A stretch of DNA of 64,000 nucleotides, taken from positions 6,213,001 through 6,277,000 of the forward strand of contig NZ_CP034444.1 in assembly GCF_003952385.1 (NCBI RefSeq), read 5' to 3'. Made by a program: the position numbers and the translations under genes. Numbering within the stretch: position 1 is the first letter of the stretch; each line of letters begins with the position of its first letter. This document shows positions 23,703 through 29,646 of the stretch, in pieces. The notes beneath the pieces were generated by a model. It made no database searches. It saw only the letters and a program-made list of their open reading frames with translations, and was not told the origin of the DNA. Source of the DNA: Mesorhizobium sp. M1D.F.Ca.ET.043.01.1.1 (GTDB lineage: Bacteria; Pseudomonadota; Alphaproteobacteria; Rhizobiales; Rhizobiaceae).

Positions 23703-24731
23703 TCAGGAAACGCGCAGGATGATCTTGCCGAAGACGTCGCGGCCTTCCATGCGCTTCAGCGCCGCGTCGATGTCGTCGAAGCCGACCTCGGTATCGACGA
23801 CCGGGGCGACAAGGCCGGCCGCCATCTTCTGCATGGCGTTGGCCATGTTTTCCATGCGGCAACCGAAGGAACCGAGCAGCTTCAACTGCTGCTGGAAAAG
23901 CTGCATCAGGTTGACCTGCGTCGACACGCCGGAGGTCGAGCCGCAGGTGACAAGACGGCCGCCGCGCTTCAAGGAGAGCATCGAGCCGGCAAAGGTGTCA
24001 GCGCCGACATGCTCGAAGACGACGTCGACGCCCTTCTTCTTGGTCAGCTTGCGCACGACGCCTTCGAAACGGTCCTCGCGGTAGTTGATGACATGGTCGG
24101 CGCCAAGCGCCTTCGCCTTGTCGATCTTGTCGTTCGAGCCGACCGTGGTGATGACGGTGCAACCCATCTTCTTGGCCAGCTGGATCGCGGCAGTGCCGAT
24201 GCCGGAGCCGCCGGCATGGACGAGGATGGTCTCGCCGGGTTCCAGCTTCGCGTTGTCGAACAGCATATGCTCGACCGTGCCGAAGGTGACGGGCGCGACG
24301 GCGGCGCCGATTTCCGTGACGCCGGGTGGCGCGGGCACCAGCAGGCGGGCCGGCAGGTTGATCTTCTCCTGCGCGAAGCCGTCGAGATGAAAACCGTGGA
24401 CGCCGGAGACATGCTCGCAGAGATTGTCGCGGCCTTGGCAGCAGGCGCGGCAAAGCCCGCAGGTGCGCGCGCCGTAGATCGACACCAGCTGGCTCGGCAG
24501 GAGGTTGGAGACGCCAGGCCCGACCGCCTCGACCTCGCCGGAGGCTTCGGCGCCGACGACCAGCGGCAGCTTGCGCTTGGCGAAGGCCATGCCGCGCCAG
24601 CCCCAGACGTCGATATGGTTCAGCGCCACCGCCTTGATGCGGAGCGTCACTTCGCCGAGCGAAGGCGGCGGGGGAGGCGGCAGATCCACCGTTTCAAGGC
24701 GGCGGTCCTCTATAAGTTGCAATGTGCGCAT
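23703..24731 (-). CDS. Zinc-type alcohol dehydrogenase-like protein of the very-long-chain fatty acid operon
   Basis: A 342-aa medium-chain dehydrogenase. It keeps the structural-zinc cysteines (CGLCRACCQGRDNLC) and the NAD(P)-binding glycine motif (GGSGIGTAAIQLA). The first catalytic-zinc position reads LNHIDVWGW, without the usual cysteine, as in quinone-reductase-like members. In Rhizobium this is the adh2XL position of the acpXL operon, between fabF1XL and lpxXL. Its likely job is a reduction step in making the 28-carbon hydroxy fatty acid. That is an inference from context. Confidence 0.85.
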   Translation of the reverse strand: MRTLQLIEDRRLETVDLPPPPPPSLGEVTLRIKAVALNHIDVWGWRGMAFAKRKLPLVVGAEASGEVEAVGPGVSNLLPSQLVSIYGARTCGLCRACCQGRDNLCEHVSGVHGFHLDGFAQEKINLPARLLVPAPPGVTEIGAAVAPVTFGTVEHMLFDNAKLEPGETILVHAGGSGIGTAAIQLAKKMGCTVITTVGSNDKIDKAKALGADHVINYREDRFEGVVRKLTKKKGVDVVFEHVGADTFAGSMLSLKRGGRLVTCGSTSGVSTQVNLMQLFQQQLKLLGSFGCRMENMANAMQKMAAGLVAPVVDTEVGFDDIDAALKRMEGRDVFGKIILRVS

Positions 24732-24769
24732 TTGGCCTGTCGGTGCTGTGGAAGCGGAAAAACGTCCGC

Positions 24770-26050
24770 TTAGACCGGTTCCCGCGCCATGACAAGGCAG
24801 GTGTTCTGGCCGCCGAAGCCGAAGGAATTCGACAGAACCGTGCCGACCTCGGCATTGCGCTTCTTGTTGGGCACCACGTCGAGCACGATCGCAGGATCGG
24901 GATTGTCATAGTTGATGGTCGGCGGAATGACGCTTTCGCGCATCGTCATCAGCGAGAATGCGGCCTCGACGGCGCCCGCGGCCGACAGCGTATGGCCGAT
25001 CATCGACTTGTTCGACGAGATCGGCATCGAGCCGGTCCGCTCGCCGAAGACGGTCGACAGCGAGAGATGCTCCATCTTGTCGTTTTCCGGCGTCGAGGTG
25101 CCGTGCGCGTTGACGTAGTCGATCTCGTCTTCGCCGAGGCCCGCATCGGCAAGCGCGGCACGGACCGCGGCAATCGCCGGCGAACCGTCCGGCTTGGAGC
25201 GGGTGCGGTGGAAGTCGTCGGCCTTTTCGCCGCAGCCGCGCATGATGCCGAGGATGGTCGCGCCGCGGGCAAGGGCCGCCTCCAGCGATTCCAGCACCAG
25301 CGCGCCGGAGCCTTCGGCAAGGACAAAACCGTCGCGGTCCTTGGAAAAGGGTTTCGAGGCCTTTTCCGGGATATCGTTGTGGGTAGAGAGCGCCGAAAGC
25401 AGCGAGAAGCGGATGAGCGCCTCGGCCGTCGCGGAGCCATCGGCACCGATCGACAACGCCTTGTCGCATTCGCCGCGGCGGATCGCCTCGACACCGAGCT
25501 GGATCGCGGTGGCGCCGGAAGCGCAGGCAGTCGACAGCGTGATCGGCAGACCGCGCGTGCCGAAACGGTCGGCGAGGCGATCGGCGATCGAGCCGAACTG
25601 GGTGGTCTCGAAAATTTCCAGCTCCTTCAGCCCGCGCGCGACCCTGAGCAGCCTTTCGGAACCGCTTTCCTTCTTGTCGGAATTGTAGAGCGAGAAGCGG
25701 TCGGCCCAGTCGAGCTCGACCGGCGGCGAAGCGAGGAATAGCGGTCCGCTGAAATCGCCGCTGTCGAGGCCGGCTTCCGCCACCGCTTCCTGCGCGGCGG
25801 TCTCAGCCAGCTCGTAGGTGAGGGGGCTGGCACCCTTGGAGCTCGACGGCAGGAAGTCGACCATACCGGAGATGCGGGTGTTCAGATGATCGACCGGAAA
25901 GCGGGTGATCGGGTGGATACCGGATTTGCCGGAGGTCAGCGCCGCCCAGTTGTCGGCCTTGCCAACGCCGAGCGACGTCACAACGCCGATGCCGGTGACG
26001 GCGACGATCGGCCTGCCCATGTGATCGCGGAGATTGGCCATGCTTTTCAT
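24770..26050 (-). CDS. fabF1XL: Beta-ketoacyl-ACP synthase II-like, FabF1XL
   Basis: A 426-aa condensing enzyme with a complete Cys-His-His active site: cysteine in LSTACASGATAIQLG, histidine in VNAHGTSTPENDKME and histidine in NKSMIGHTLSAAGAVEA. It elongates the chain carried by AcpXL during very-long-chain fatty acid synthesis. The start is uncertain among ATG 26050, ATG 26041 and an in-frame TTG at 26065. 26050 is used because GAAGG lies upstream. The gene follows fabF2XL almost directly, which fits formation of a heterodimer with it. Confidence 0.88.
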   Translation of the reverse strand: MKSMANLRDHMGRPIVAVTGIGVVTSLGVGKADNWAALTSGKSGIHPITRFPVDHLNTRISGMVDFLPSSSKGASPLTYELAETAAQEAVAEAGLDSGDFSGPLFLASPPVELDWADRFSLYNSDKKESGSERLLRVARGLKELEIFETTQFGSIADRLADRFGTRGLPITLSTACASGATAIQLGVEAIRRGECDKALSIGADGSATAEALIRFSLLSALSTHNDIPEKASKPFSKDRDGFVLAEGSGALVLESLEAALARGATILGIMRGCGEKADDFHRTRSKPDGSPAIAAVRAALADAGLGEDEIDYVNAHGTSTPENDKMEHLSLSTVFGERTGSMPISSNKSMIGHTLSAAGAVEAAFSLMTMRESVIPPTINYDNPDPAIVLDVVPNKKRNAEVGTVLSNSFGFGGQNTCLVMAREPV

Positions 26051-26061
26051 TTGCCTTCGCT

Positions 26062-27252
26062 TCAAGCGGCTTTGACCAGCCCAAGGCCTTCGAATTGGTG
26101 ATAGCCGATGGCCGTTGCAAGGACTGCTGCGGGAGCGCCATCGAATGGCCGCTCCACTGTTGCATCGAAGACAGGGTAGGGAGCCTTGCGATCGACGGCG
26201 AGCGCGGCGAGCGCCACGGCGAAGGGAAACTGCGCTTCCTTCATGTGCCCGGTCAGCGTCGAGAGAGCGCGCACGGCGAGTGCCGGGCGGGCGTCGAGCG
26301 CCGCCTTTTCGGCCGCCGTGGCGGCATGGGCGCCTGACGCCCCGGAAATCGTCAGCAGCTCACCGGCAGGCAGAGCCGTCTGCTCGATCAGCGCGGCGAT
26401 TTCCGAATTCAACTCGCCGCGCCGACGCCTGGCCCGGCCGGAAACCACGGGACCGAGCTCCGCATAGATCTTGCGGCCGCGGCTAACCGCGTGCTCGCGG
26501 TGCTCCAGCACCAGGAAGGCGCCGCCAGAGCCCGTCACCACGCCGCCGCCCTCGGCGCCCTGCCGCTGCCAGACCGGCCGCCAGGGGCCGCGATGCAGAT
26601 AACCGGCGAGCTCATAGCCCAGCAGCATGTCGGAATGTTCGGTCTGGAACGCGCCGCCGACCAGCACATGGGTCGACTGGCCGGAGCGAATGCGCGCGGC
26701 GGCCGTCTCGACGGCGGAGACGCCGGCGCCTTCCTCGCCCATGAAGGTGCGGGAGGACCCGGTGACCTTGTGGACGATCGAAATATTGCCCGCGAGCAGG
26801 TTGGAAAGCTGGGCGAGGAACAGCGTCGGCCGCAGTTCCGTGGTCAGCTTCTCGTTGAGCAGCACGTCGCGGTCGTTGCGGCTCTCGGAGGCGGCAAGGA
26901 TCGCGCTGTCGACAGCCTCGTCGCGCTCGCCGCCGCCGGCCGCCACCACCATGTCCATGGTGGCGCAGAGCTCGTCATTGCCCTTGATGCCGGCGTCGTC
27001 CAGCGCCAGGCCGGCTACATAGGTGCCGAGCCGCTGCCAGGTTTCCATCTGGCGCTGGTCGCCGCGCTTGGCGATCTGCAGGTTCCAGTCGATCTCGGGC
27101 AGCGGATGGATGGTATAAGGCGCAAAGCGCGTCGCATCGAGCACCGGCTCAACACCCGGGCGGGTCAGCTTCTGCCAATGTGCGTCCGGTCCTTCTCCCA
27201 GCGAGGAGACAAGGCCGATGCCGGTGATGACGACGTCGCGCGGGCTGCTCAT
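26062..27252 (-). CDS. fabF2XL: Beta-ketoacyl-ACP synthase homologue lacking the catalytic cysteine, FabF2XL
   Basis: A 396-aa protein with the ketosynthase fold (start DVVITGIGLVSSLGEGPDAHW). Where active enzymes have TACASG, it reads KVTGSSRTFMGEEGAG, without cysteine. Where they have the HGT histidine, it reads SGASGAHAATAAEK. Only the last histidine (TLTGHMKEAQ) is kept. It is therefore probably not a condensing enzyme by itself. It resembles the chain-length-factor (KS-beta) partner of type II polyketide synthases and likely pairs with FabF1XL. It is placed directly after acpXL, with a 46-bp gap in which no fabZ-type dehydratase fits. Confidence 0.85.
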   Translation of the reverse strand: MSSPRDVVITGIGLVSSLGEGPDAHWQKLTRPGVEPVLDATRFAPYTIHPLPEIDWNLQIAKRGDQRQMETWQRLGTYVAGLALDDAGIKGNDELCATMDMVVAAGGGERDEAVDSAILAASESRNDRDVLLNEKLTTELRPTLFLAQLSNLLAGNISIVHKVTGSSRTFMGEEGAGVSAVETAAARIRSGQSTHVLVGGAFQTEHSDMLLGYELAGYLHRGPWRPVWQRQGAEGGGVVTGSGGAFLVLEHREHAVSRGRKIYAELGPVVSGRARRRRGELNSEIAALIEQTALPAGELLTISGASGAHAATAAEKAALDARPALAVRALSTLTGHMKEAQFPFAVALAALAVDRKAPYPVFDATVERPFDGAPAAVLATAIGYHQFEGLGLVKAA

Positions 27253-27298
27253 GAGCGGCTTTGTGGGTCGAGCTGGAGGCTGGTCAAGATCGCGCTCG

Positions 27299-27580
27299 TC
27301 AGGCGGCCTTGGCCGCGACCAGCGCGTCGATCTTGGCGCACAGGTTCTTCATGACGAAGTAGTCGTCGGTCGAGGCCTTGCCGTCATTGACCTCCTGCGT
27401 CCACTTCTCCAGCGGCACCTTGATGCCGAATTCCTTGTCGATGGCAAAGACGATATCGAGGAAATCGAGGCTGTCGATGCCGAGATCGTCGATGGTGTGG
27501 CTTTCGGGCGTGATGGTGTCGATATCGATCTCGCTGGTGTCGGCAATGATCTTGGCGACTTTCTCGAACGTGGTGGACAA
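27299..27580 (-). CDS. acpXL: Specialised acyl carrier protein for very-long-chain fatty acids
   Basis: A 93-aa carrier protein almost identical in pattern to rhizobial Acp[40 protein letters not shown] split around the phosphopantetheine serine (in GIDSLDF), then [13 protein letters not shown]. It carries the growing C28 hydroxy acid that ends up on lipid A. The start is taken as TTG 27580, with AAGGAAGAG just upstream. It gives the family length of 92-93 residues. No ATG lies near, and the next upstream ATG would add an unrelated extension. This is the first gene of the operon; its promoter must lie within 27581-27700. Confidence 0.92.
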
Positions 27581-27708
27581 GGGCTCTTCCTTCGGGTTGC
27601 GGGCGGAATCTGTCCGCATCTTGTTTGGGCGCTGTCTAATCGGTTTTTCCCGGCAGGAAAAGGCCTGTTGCGCCGGGCGCAAATGGGTAGAGGCCGCGTG
27701 AAACGCAA

Positions 27709-27758: not shown

Positions 27759-28904
27759 TCAGCTCTCGCGGAGCTTGACCAGGTCGTTCAGCAGCCCGCC
27801 CGTACCGTTATGGACAGTGAGCCGCTCGACCTTGCCGGCGATGGCTTCGAGAGCCTCGAGCTCCTTCAGCCGCAGCATCACCGGGTTCTCGGCCATCACC
27901 TTGGCCGTGTTGAGCAGCGAACGCGTGGCGTTCGTCTCCTCGCGGCGGCGGATGACGTTGGCCTCGGCCTGCTTCTCGGCCGAAACCACCTGGTTGAGGA
28001 TCTCGCGCATCTCGCCCGGCAGGATGACATCCTTGAGCGCGATATCGCTGACCTCGAGGCCGATCGCGGCCATGTCAGCACGCACCTTGGCGGCCGCCTC
28101 CTCGTCGACGGTGACCTTCTTGTCGAGGATCTGGTCGAGCGTGAGCGCGCCAAGCGTCTTGCGGAAGGCGTACTGCAGGGCGCGGTAAAGGGCTTCCGCG
28201 AAGTCCTTCACCGTGCTCACCGCCGTCACCGGATCGACGACCCGGTATTCGGCCGCGATGTTGACGCGGATGGTCACGCGATCCCTGGTCAACATTTCCT
28301 GCCCGGCGACATCAAGCGACTGGCGCTTGAGGTCGACGACCTTCACCTGGACCATACGTCCGACATTCCAGAAGGCATGCACGCCCGCGGCAAGGGTGCG
28401 GGCGTAGACGCCGTCCACGAAGAGCAGCCCGACCTGGCCGTCCACGACCGAATGCAGGAACATGTGTTCCGTCTTCCGGGCCTGGCCGATCCGGCGCATC
28501 AAGGCCGGATCGACGGCGAGATCGGCCGCCGTGTCGACAGACGTCACCTTCCAGGGGCCGGCATCCGTCCACAGCACGAGCTTGCGGTCCGGAATGAGAA
28601 CGGCATGGAGGGCGCCATCGCGCTCGATGACGGCAATGTCGGTGCGCCCGGTGCGGACGACGGTGAAGTGACGCGCGGCTACATCCGGGAGCTTGTCGAA
28701 CAATGCCTTCTCGTATGCCGAAACGAATTCCGGGTTCTTCAGGTCGTGCCTGGAGATTTCCAGGTTGCCGCGCCGGTTGGCGAGCCAATGCTCGCCCGGC
28801 ATCAGGACAGCCTGGATCTCGCCCTTGTAGAGGGCGACGGCACGCTCATTTTCCTTCACGAGGACGCGCTGGCGTCCAAGAAGCTTTTCGAGAATCGTCT
28901 TCAT
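27759..28904 (-). CDS. Slipin (stomatin/prohibitin SPFH-domain) family protein
   Basis: A 381-aa protein of the SPFH group. It begins MKTILEKLLGRQRVLVKENERAVALYKGEIQAVL and carries the band-7 core around VKVVDLKRQSLDVAGQEMLTRDRVTIRVN, followed by a coiled-coil-prone EKQAEANVIRRREE segment. Bacterial slipins oligomerise at the inner membrane and scaffold proteins or proteases; the precise role is unknown. It lacks a long N-terminal membrane helix, so membrane contact may be peripheral. ATG 28904 has GGGAGTAAAG upstream, a good ribosome site. It stands alone between a terminator and the tRNA-like genes. Confidence 0.85.
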   Translation of the reverse strand: MKTILEKLLGRQRVLVKENERAVALYKGEIQAVLMPGEHWLANRRGNLEISRHDLKNPEFVSAYEKALFDKLPDVAARHFTVVRTGRTDIAVIERDGALHAVLIPDRKLVLWTDAGPWKVTSVDTAADLAVDPALMRRIGQARKTEHMFLHSVVDGQVGLLFVDGVYARTLAAGVHAFWNVGRMVQVKVVDLKRQSLDVAGQEMLTRDRVTIRVNIAAEYRVVDPVTAVSTVKDFAEALYRALQYAFRKTLGALTLDQILDKKVTVDEEAAAKVRADMAAIGLEVSDIALKDVILPGEMREILNQVVSAEKQAEANVIRRREETNATRSLLNTAKVMAENPVMLRLKELEALEAIAGKVERLTVHNGTGGLLNDLVKLRES

Positions 28905-29272
28905 TGTCTTTACTCCCGTCGGGCATGGCCCCATGCGAGGCGTCACGTCATGCGTCGATCGTCCTTTCGTTTCTCGTTTCACATCGTCTGTTCACAGTTC
29001 CGGGCACGAATGATCCGGAGACCGGTGGCATCAATCCGTAGCGGGCCTTCGGGAGCGGATCGCGGGGCGGCAAAGCGGGCGCTGGAGCCCGAAGGCTCCG
29101 TTGCCGGCACTGTCGCGCCTTGATCGTCACCGCGGGCCTGGCCGCGAGGCGATGGCGCAGGACATCGCGGGCCGGTGGGGCCGAAGCCGTGCCGTCCTTT
29201 GAAGCCTTCGCATTCCGGTCCCCGGACCGATTTTCCAGATAACACCGTGACAGGGTGGCTTGGCTTGGAAGG
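28905..29272. other. Intergenic region downstream of the tRNA-like genes
   Basis: This 368-bp stretch holds the slipin promoter region and the 3' flank of the tRNA-like genes, which read towards it. A short hairpin (cggtc 29216-29220 with gaccg 29225-29229, then attttcc) lies about 45 bases from the tRNA-like pair. The rest shows no open frame with a ribosome site and no named element. Confidence 0.45.
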
Positions 29273-29346
29273 CCAATGGAGAAGGATTCGAACCTTCGAC
29301 CGTCAGATTATGAGTCTGATGCTCTACCCAACTGAGCTATCCGTGG
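29273..29346 (-). tRNA. tRNA-like gene, anticodon CAT, degenerate acceptor stem
   Basis: On the minus strand the D arm (GCTC AGTTGGGTA GAGC), anticodon arm (TCAGA CTCATAA TCTGA) and T arm (GAAGG TTCGAAT CCTTC) are all perfectly paired and canonical in size, with anticodon CAT. The acceptor stem is not canonical: CCACGGA faces TCCATTGG. It pairs only as CCA/TGG and GGA/TCC, with a small internal mismatch. The first three bases are the CCA end of the neighbouring tRNA-like gene. No CCA is encoded at its own 3' end. It could be an elongator Met or Ile2-type tRNA in decay, or a functional unusual tRNA; the sequence alone does not decide. Confidence 0.55.
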
Positions 29347-29417
29347 TGCAGACAGCAGGAGTCGAACCTGCGACCTCCGGATCCAAATCCGGCGCTCTTC
29401 CGCTGAGCTACATCCGC
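29344..29417 (-). tRNA. tRNA-like gene with an atypical 6-base anticodon loop (TGG, Pro-like if canonical)
   Basis: On the minus strand: acceptor GCGGATG/TGTCTGC (seven pairs, three of them G-T wobbles), D arm GCTC AGCGGAA GAGC, T arm GCAGG TTCGACT CCTGC, discriminator A and an encoded CCA. The anticodon stem CCGGA/TCCGG encloses only six bases, TTTGGA, instead of seven. Counting from the conserved T33, the anticodon would be TGG. The body otherwise resembles ordinary bacterial tRNAs. The CCA end is shared with the tRNA-like gene that follows. Whether it is charged, and with what, cannot be told. Confidence 0.55.
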
Positions 29418-29646
29418 GATCCCAATCCCCGAAACGGCGCCGCACACAGCTCGGCAAAGCCGGCTGCGCGGGCGGAGACGAAAGCTCCAACCGTTGTGCT
29501 CGCTTCGGTTTTCGTGACCGGGAGCGCGCCTATAGACCCTGCGACGGGTTGTCGCAAGCGGCATTGTCGCGGCGGATTTGGGGCTTCTTTCGGCAGTGGC
29601 ATTTCTGCAACAGTTGCAACCATCGCCTGTATCAGGCTCGCGGCTG

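Follow-up and report, generated by a model that had tools for sequence, protein, structure and literature searches.

Tandem tRNA-like RNAs with changing anticodon loops beside an SPFH gene in Mesorhizobium and other bacteria: a possible anticodon bait

Introduction

What are two tRNA-like sequences for when one of them carries a six-base anticodon loop, the other has a broken acceptor stem, and the two follow each other without a gap and share a single CCA? Such a pair lies on the minus strand of a 64,000-nucleotide stretch of the Mesorhizobium sp. M1D.F.Ca.ET.043.01.1.1 genome, the whole of which we call the window and from whose first letter all positions are counted. A first-pass annotation, made from the letters of the window, had offered three options: recently dead tRNAs, tRNAs that are edited or trimmed, and non-translational tRNA mimics. 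Here we compare the locus across the genus and across a wide range of bacteria, and find that the pair belongs to a unit with a gene of the SPFH superfamily, whose proteins form rings.

Results

Two tRNA-like RNAs share a CCA on the minus strand

Both ARAGORN and the Rfam tRNA model called the tandem, gap-free pair at 29273-29417 on the minus strand, with the overlap at the CCA (29344-29346) that had been annotated. ARAGORN named 29271-29346 on this strand as tRNA-Met(cat) and 29344-29417 as 'tRNA-???' with a two-letter anticodon, which is its mark of a short loop. The Rfam tRNA scores of the two RNAs, 61.7 and 60.3 bits, lie inside the range of the 49 Rfam tRNA matches of the same genome (30.8-80.1 bits). 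Among the Rfam families, only the generic tRNA model matched in the window and none of the other known RNA families did; folding energies were ordinary (z of -0.15, -0.98, -0.34 and -0.91). The features of the locus are as follows.

29347..29417, minus strand: tRNA-like RNA 1 (ARAGORN, Rfam tRNA), with its CCA at 29344-29346 common to RNA 2
29382..29387, minus strand: six-base anticodon-like loop of RNA 1, TTTGGA, differing between relatives in an invariant stem
29273..29346, minus strand: tRNA-like RNA 2, with a broken acceptor stem (ARAGORN, Rfam tRNA, folding)
29308..29314, minus strand: anticodon loop of RNA 2, CTCATAA, with the triplet CAT, differing between relatives
29260..29276, minus strand: free-standing anticodon stem-loop mimic, TTGGC-CTTCCAA-GCCAA, with the loop form CT-NNN-AA
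29216..29229, minus strand: GC-rich CGGTCC-GG-GGACCG hairpin, read by eye, in the stretch from the RNAs to the SPFH gene
29418..29587, minus strand: leader or promoter region upstream of RNA 1, strongly conserved (most columns at least 90% identical across the genus loci that were aligned)
27759..28904, minus strand: SPFH/Band-7 (slipin-like) gene, encoding N-terminal beta modules, an SPFH domain and a long helix (Pfam Band_7, 1.3e-29)
27761..29588, minus strand, ends approximate: present/absent cassette of leader, two tRNA-like RNAs, stem-loop hairpin and SPFH gene (empty-site comparison)

Each RNA has a cloverleaf with D and T arms. In RNA 1, the six-base loop TTTGGA (29387-29382) indeed sits in a perfect CCGGA/TCCGG stem, and an acceptor stem is present, with 93.4% of cells paired in the genus alignment. 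The D, anticodon and T arms of RNA 2 are perfect, as had been noted, with the caveat that the minimum-energy fold redraws the D arm. A full acceptor stem is absent from RNA 2, which pairs there only in two 3-bp blocks. Both annotated blocks, CCA/TGG and GGA/TCC, do pair in the window, and the inner GGA/TCC is retained, position by position, in 52, 51 and 52 of the 52 distinct rows, the one exception being a gap; the outer CCA/TGG, however, is not conserved, several relatives having CGG. The 3' bases of the outer block fit the separate hairpin TTGGC-CTTCCAA-GCCAA (29276-29260), and NCCA precedes RNA 2 in 41 of the 53 same-genus loci described below.

The RNA pair and an SPFH gene form one present/absent unit

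Across 90 same-genus genomes (this one and 89 others), the RNA pair occurs in 53. The SPFH gene accompanies it in 52 of them; the one left, G019, has a contig that stops just past the pair. The remaining 37 genomes lack the pair, and in all nine of these that we examined, the genes flanking the cassette, an acyl-carrier-protein-side gene and a histidine-phosphatase gene, are neighbours, with no tRNA called. Since the flanking genes adjoin in empty genomes, the leader, the RNAs and the SPFH gene constitute one present/absent unit of about 1.83 kb. In L150, flanking matches stop at window position 27760 and restart at 29589; in other genomes the limits lie slightly further out. An SPFH gene of 32% identity (L065), located elsewhere in one pairless genome (G071), was not counted as a relative; at the named same-genus locus L141, the SPFH protein is 91% identical. 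In four of the 52 genomes (G043, G045, G057, G077), the SPFH frame is split or contains a stop and the tRNA-like pair is present.

The AlphaFold2 model of the SPFH protein, for which the start codon was picked by eye, has a mean pLDDT of 88.8. Going by structure only, and by rows for the major vault protein, its N-terminal repeats, which were also modelled on their own, may resemble those of that protein; a relation to vaults by sequence was sought and none was found. Downstream of the cassette, 23703-27682 holds a ketoacyl-synthase and an acyl carrier protein gene. A further synthase gene and one like an alcohol dehydrogenase were read there by eye, and the group resembles the rhizobial acpXL very-long-chain fatty acid cluster.

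Outside the genus, too, tRNA-like RNAs accompany the SPFH gene

From 563 loci scanned out by an SPFH alignment, the best 80, all named, were kept; these 80 span Alpha-, Beta- and Gammaproteobacteria, Acidobacteria and Verrucomicrobia. For the 77 of them with at least 900 nt of upstream sequence (L077, L124 and L145 were left out), ARAGORN called a same-strand tRNA within 900 nt upstream in 67, compared to 2 of 75 and 1 of 74 control stretches. The other 10 carry D- and T-arm words upstream, bringing tRNA-like elements to 77 of 77. Two adjoining ARAGORN copies were found in 27 loci, and 16 of these 27 first copies have a two-letter anticodon. In six other families of the order, a tRNA-like RNA lies upstream of the SPFH gene in L059-L063, and none was present upstream of L064, a more distant SPFH relative in the order.

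The form of the RNA differs between lineages. ARAGORN gave the first mimic a stop-codon anticodon (tta) in L066 and L078. In Burkholderia, we read by eye a minihelix as the first RNA (L157, L160, L161) and a GAAA tetraloop in place of the RNA 2 anticodon loop (L157, L161). In the slipin operons of E. coli and Citrobacter (L155, L156, L163, L164), the upstream RNA is, also by eye, only a T-arm-like hairpin, preceded by a site of sigma-54-like appearance. A stop codon lies within the slipin gene of L164, where IS4 also breaks the nucleotidyltransferase gene. Of 5426 E. coli genomes, 1624 contain DNA resembling the Citrobacter copy, at 60-80% identity and counting the match alone, intactness aside.

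Several cassettes (L134, L136, L138, L139, L144, L166) stand beside 2 to 25 further tRNA calls. One of these, L166, is on a 94-kb contig of a viral collection, with 8 tRNA calls on its 5-kb locus. A phage origin was considered and rejected: SPFH matches numbered 0 in 50,697 phage records, and viral contigs gave four relatives, one of them L166.

Wherever ARAGORN called the RNAs, they lie on the same strand as the SPFH gene, about 260-750 nt upstream of it; in the window, the SPFH start is about 370 nt downstream of RNA 2. Our scan, which covered promoters of the sigma-70 type and intrinsic terminators, found neither at its thresholds between the RNAs and the SPFH gene of the window, made no terminator call at the hairpin 29216..29229, and found no sigma-70 consensus match in the leader (29418..29587). 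A strict sigma-54 pattern was absent from -900 to -300 of the 77 loci; sites resembling sigma-54 promoters were seen by eye upstream of L155-L157. This shared strand and spacing, the lack of such matches between RNAs and gene in the window, and the joint presence or absence of the unit would suit a cis-acting sensor: the SPFH mRNA would begin with the RNA as its 5' leader, and cleavage or binding of the RNA would switch SPFH expression. However, the scan was limited to two signal types and the mimics could equally act in trans once cut out, and we consider this reading improbable.

Stems are kept and anticodon loops change

The rows of the genus alignment were excised by a pattern in which the fixed stems are spelled out; all 53 loci passed it. 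Among the 52 distinct rows of the alignment, no change occurs in the D and anticodon stems of either RNA or in the T stem of RNA 2. Variation, partly compensated, is seen in the third hairpin and, within RNA 1, in the acceptor and T stems. Altogether 97.2% of stem cells are paired, covariation is.113 as against.018-.042 when the structure is slid, and both-side stem changes amount to 57 cells compared to 23.5 in shuffles, a figure inflated by related rows.

Loop 1 takes 19 distinct sequences in the 53 loci, 42 of them with six nucleotides and 11 with five, and loop 2 takes 17, with seven nucleotides in 52 loci; U33 is present in 43 of these 52, and in RNA 2 of the window. Orthologous anticodons thus differ among the 53 loci. 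The length of five or six nucleotides in all 53, together with the retained inner GGA/TCC block of RNA 2, disposes of a sequencing error, to which the odd loop or acceptor might have been put down, and editing or trimming is not needed to account for the loop because its length is itself conserved. A flip of the loop into a Trp-like one, which the first-pass annotation had suggested, is found in none of the 19 distinct loops.

The same annotation had held that ordinary covariance-model scores would tell against an unusual reading, and formally the two scores are ordinary; here the comparison across genomes overrides them. Scores of 60-62 bits within the tRNA range of the genome are the one thing that speaks for ordinary or decaying tRNA genes, to which we attach next to no weight: orthologues differ in their anticodons, loop 1 is never of full length, the stems are kept in 53 loci, and the pair follows the SPFH gene into bacteria only distantly related to the genus. 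Of the options first offered, recent death is contradicted by this conservation, and non-translational mimicry is supported by a pair that is kept across the genus and, with SPFH, well outside it, its stems kept or covarying and its anticodons changing.

The second anticodon triplet changes faster than four-fold sites in close pairs

We compared rates in 23 disjoint pairs of genus loci, drawn from a subset like the 47 of 53 loci in an all-pairs table. In the close set of 17 pairs with four-fold divergence below.15 (triplet 2 usable in 16), triplet 2 shows 11 substitutions in 48 sites (.229), compared to 333 in 3775 four-fold sites (.088), a 2.6-fold excess with a binomial p of.0026 if sites are taken as independent; four-fold sites may be slowed by codon bias. 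Loop 1 (.139) and the loop of the mimic hairpin (.171) also lie above the four-fold rate, and the spacer (.065) and leader (.049) lie below it. The D-loops are fast as well, at.221 and.176 by edit distance, and the 3' half of RNA 1 reaches.201 over all 23 pairs. The all-pairs table agrees with the close-pair pattern. Changes in the loops are clumped, and one pair at a four-fold divergence of.005 differs in every loop, which indicates that recombinational exchange contributes; the modules of RNA 1 look mosaic.

Similarly, in a Bradyrhizobium sample of 25 loci, 23 with seven-nucleotide loops, triplet divergence over all pairs was.32 at a four-fold divergence of.16,.52 at.27 and.58 at.35, with stems at.02-.07 and 17 distinct loops in the 23 loci; in the two closest pairs the triplets are identical.

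Within loop 2, positions 34 and 35 are the most variable. A37 hardly varies in either genus, the same holds for A38 in Mesorhizobium, and U33 is mostly kept. Position 32 has a diversity of.5, varying between pyrimidines in Mesorhizobium; position 36 has.24 there versus.58 in Bradyrhizobium, where position 38 is also variable (.42). The free stem-loop mimic is stricter: diversities at positions 32-38 are.04,.04,.21,.35,.31, 0 and.04 (45 seven-nucleotide loops of 53 loci), so that only 34-36 vary. The CT...AA hairpin loop is present in 43 of the 53 same-genus loci and missing in 10. Among the 77 wider loci, a CT-NNN-AA hairpin occurs in 28, compared to 0.44% of shuffles, and is missing in 49; the 28, one of which (L141) is within the genus, have 12 distinct loops. 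The distinct triplets fall in the bacterially used set in 18 of 20 cases versus 72% by chance (p.051), which is only suggestive.

We read these patterns, which are those of aligned sequences, as probable anticodon mimicry with changing anticodons, recombination being one likely route of change. The clumped changes, the fast D-loops and RNA 1 3' half and the mosaic-looking RNA 1 modules would also be expected if constraint were relaxed and diverged copies recombined, the triplets being under no selection. That account is unlikely in our judgement, as it sits poorly with the near-fixed A37, the mostly kept U33 and the constancy of frame in the stem-loop mimic, and with a triplet rate above the four-fold rate in close genus pairs and most Bradyrhizobium bins.

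Some relatives lie next to RNA repair genes

RtcB is encoded in 12 of the 80 relatives' loci, directly downstream in two; rtcR adjoins a Citrobacter relative, an RNA-repair nucleotidyltransferase (RlaP) adjoins an E. coli relative, and tRNA arrays adjoin several others. No RtcB match was found in the Mesorhizobium genome itself. A PADLOC search, whose library is without RNAs, returned 0 families for four SPFH proteins.

These neighbours raise the alternative that the RNA is a scaffold or cofactor of RNA repair, the SPFH platform gathering repair enzymes and damaged tRNAs, with loops that vary as nothing binds them. The lack of anticodon arms in E. coli-type copies would agree with this, as would P. 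aeruginosa PaFlo8, which is embedded in the rtc locus according to PMC13086221. However, loops that nothing binds should drift neutrally and lose A37 and the mimic frame; those observed change faster and retain both, and the genome studied here has no RtcB match. We regard the repair scaffold as somewhat unlikely.

Discussion

Taking together the single unit, the co-occurrence, the kept structure, the fast loops and the kept A37 and hairpin frame that emerge from comparison, we infer a bait role: the structured RNA, two tRNA mimics plus a free stem-loop, may display changing anticodons as a bait or sensor on an SPFH platform. We favour this reading tentatively, at rather less than even confidence. 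The ring-forming habit of the SPFH superfamily is the basis of the platform idea. The RNA, acting either on its own or as a leader at the 5' end of the SPFH mRNA, would not decode codons; its changing anticodons would be presented to anticodon-loop-reading factors as a decoy or tripwire, and the SPFH protein would hold the RNA or act upon its cleavage. The targets would most likely be anticodon-cleaving toxins or immune nucleases, and anticodon nucleases are the best-known candidate anticodon-reading factors in bacterial conflict. More doubtful, though possible, is the broader proposal of a widespread ribonucleoprotein: an SPFH ring would bear a bait array of anticodons, its stems fixed and its loops, chiefly at the anticodon letters, diversifying fast under an arms race against toxins or immune nucleases that read anticodons. 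Both bait readings lose ground through the fast change of the D-loops and of the 3' half of RNA 1, and through a loop 2 frame that is only partly fixed. Anticodon display would moreover not be needed in every lineage, given that the E. coli/Citrobacter and Burkholderia copies are without ordinary anticodon loops.

The association itself has a precedent. In 2016, Burroughs & Aravind (NAR 44:8525) reportedly described RNA repair systems in which an SPFH/Band-7 module comes with its own cognate tRNA-like RNA. The present loci are alike in that SPFH adjoins a tRNA-like RNA (52 of 53 in the genus, 77 of 77 more widely) and in the links of relatives to RtcB, RtcR and the nucleotidyltransferase. Compared to those modules, they may differ in the tandem mimics, the loop 1 of five to six nucleotides, the variable triplets and the stem-loop mimic, and in a host genome that has no RtcB match.

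Other systems are partly similar. The bacterial Y RNA YrlA has a tRNA-like domain beside RNA repair genes, and the authors of a study of a YrlA-type system float competitive inhibition of an anticodon nuclease. The Rfam YrlA model had no match in the window at its gathering score. A sub-threshold match of 38.9 bits (cut-off 69) at L063:6676-6828 runs across the T arm of the first RNA and the D arm of the second. Y-RNA-type modules could perhaps have arisen from the junction of tandem tRNA mimics.

In Anabaena, PMC10272220 and PMC9938897 state that deletion of TrcR raises a tRNA array, rtcB and a slipin gene together, a likeness in that slipin, rtcB and tRNA array are under common regulation; unlike here, the genes are called tRNAs, and the term 'tRNA-like' is absent from PMC10272220. 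The Bacillus cereus pseudo-tRNA tRNAOther is a tRNA-like gene that is said to be non-functional in translation (PMC3399842, abstract part), and the same part, in contrast to the situation here, mentions neither an SPFH partner nor variable anticodons.

None of the papers listed by full-text searches, which do not cover the 2016 study, deals with variable anticodons in tRNA mimics linked to SPFH. The variable anticodons and the stem-loop mimic therefore look new, and SPFH with a tRNA-like RNA is reportedly already described.

For annotation, our comparison is a warning: where a tRNA-Met, -Asn, -Phe or stop-anticodon gene is called shortly before a slipin gene of this kind, it may be non-translational. 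If the bait reading is true, an unexplained SPFH subfamily of many bacteria would gain a partner RNA, and bacteria would possess RNA decoys with anticodons that evolve as antigens do, from whose bait sequences unseen anticodon nucleases could be inferred.
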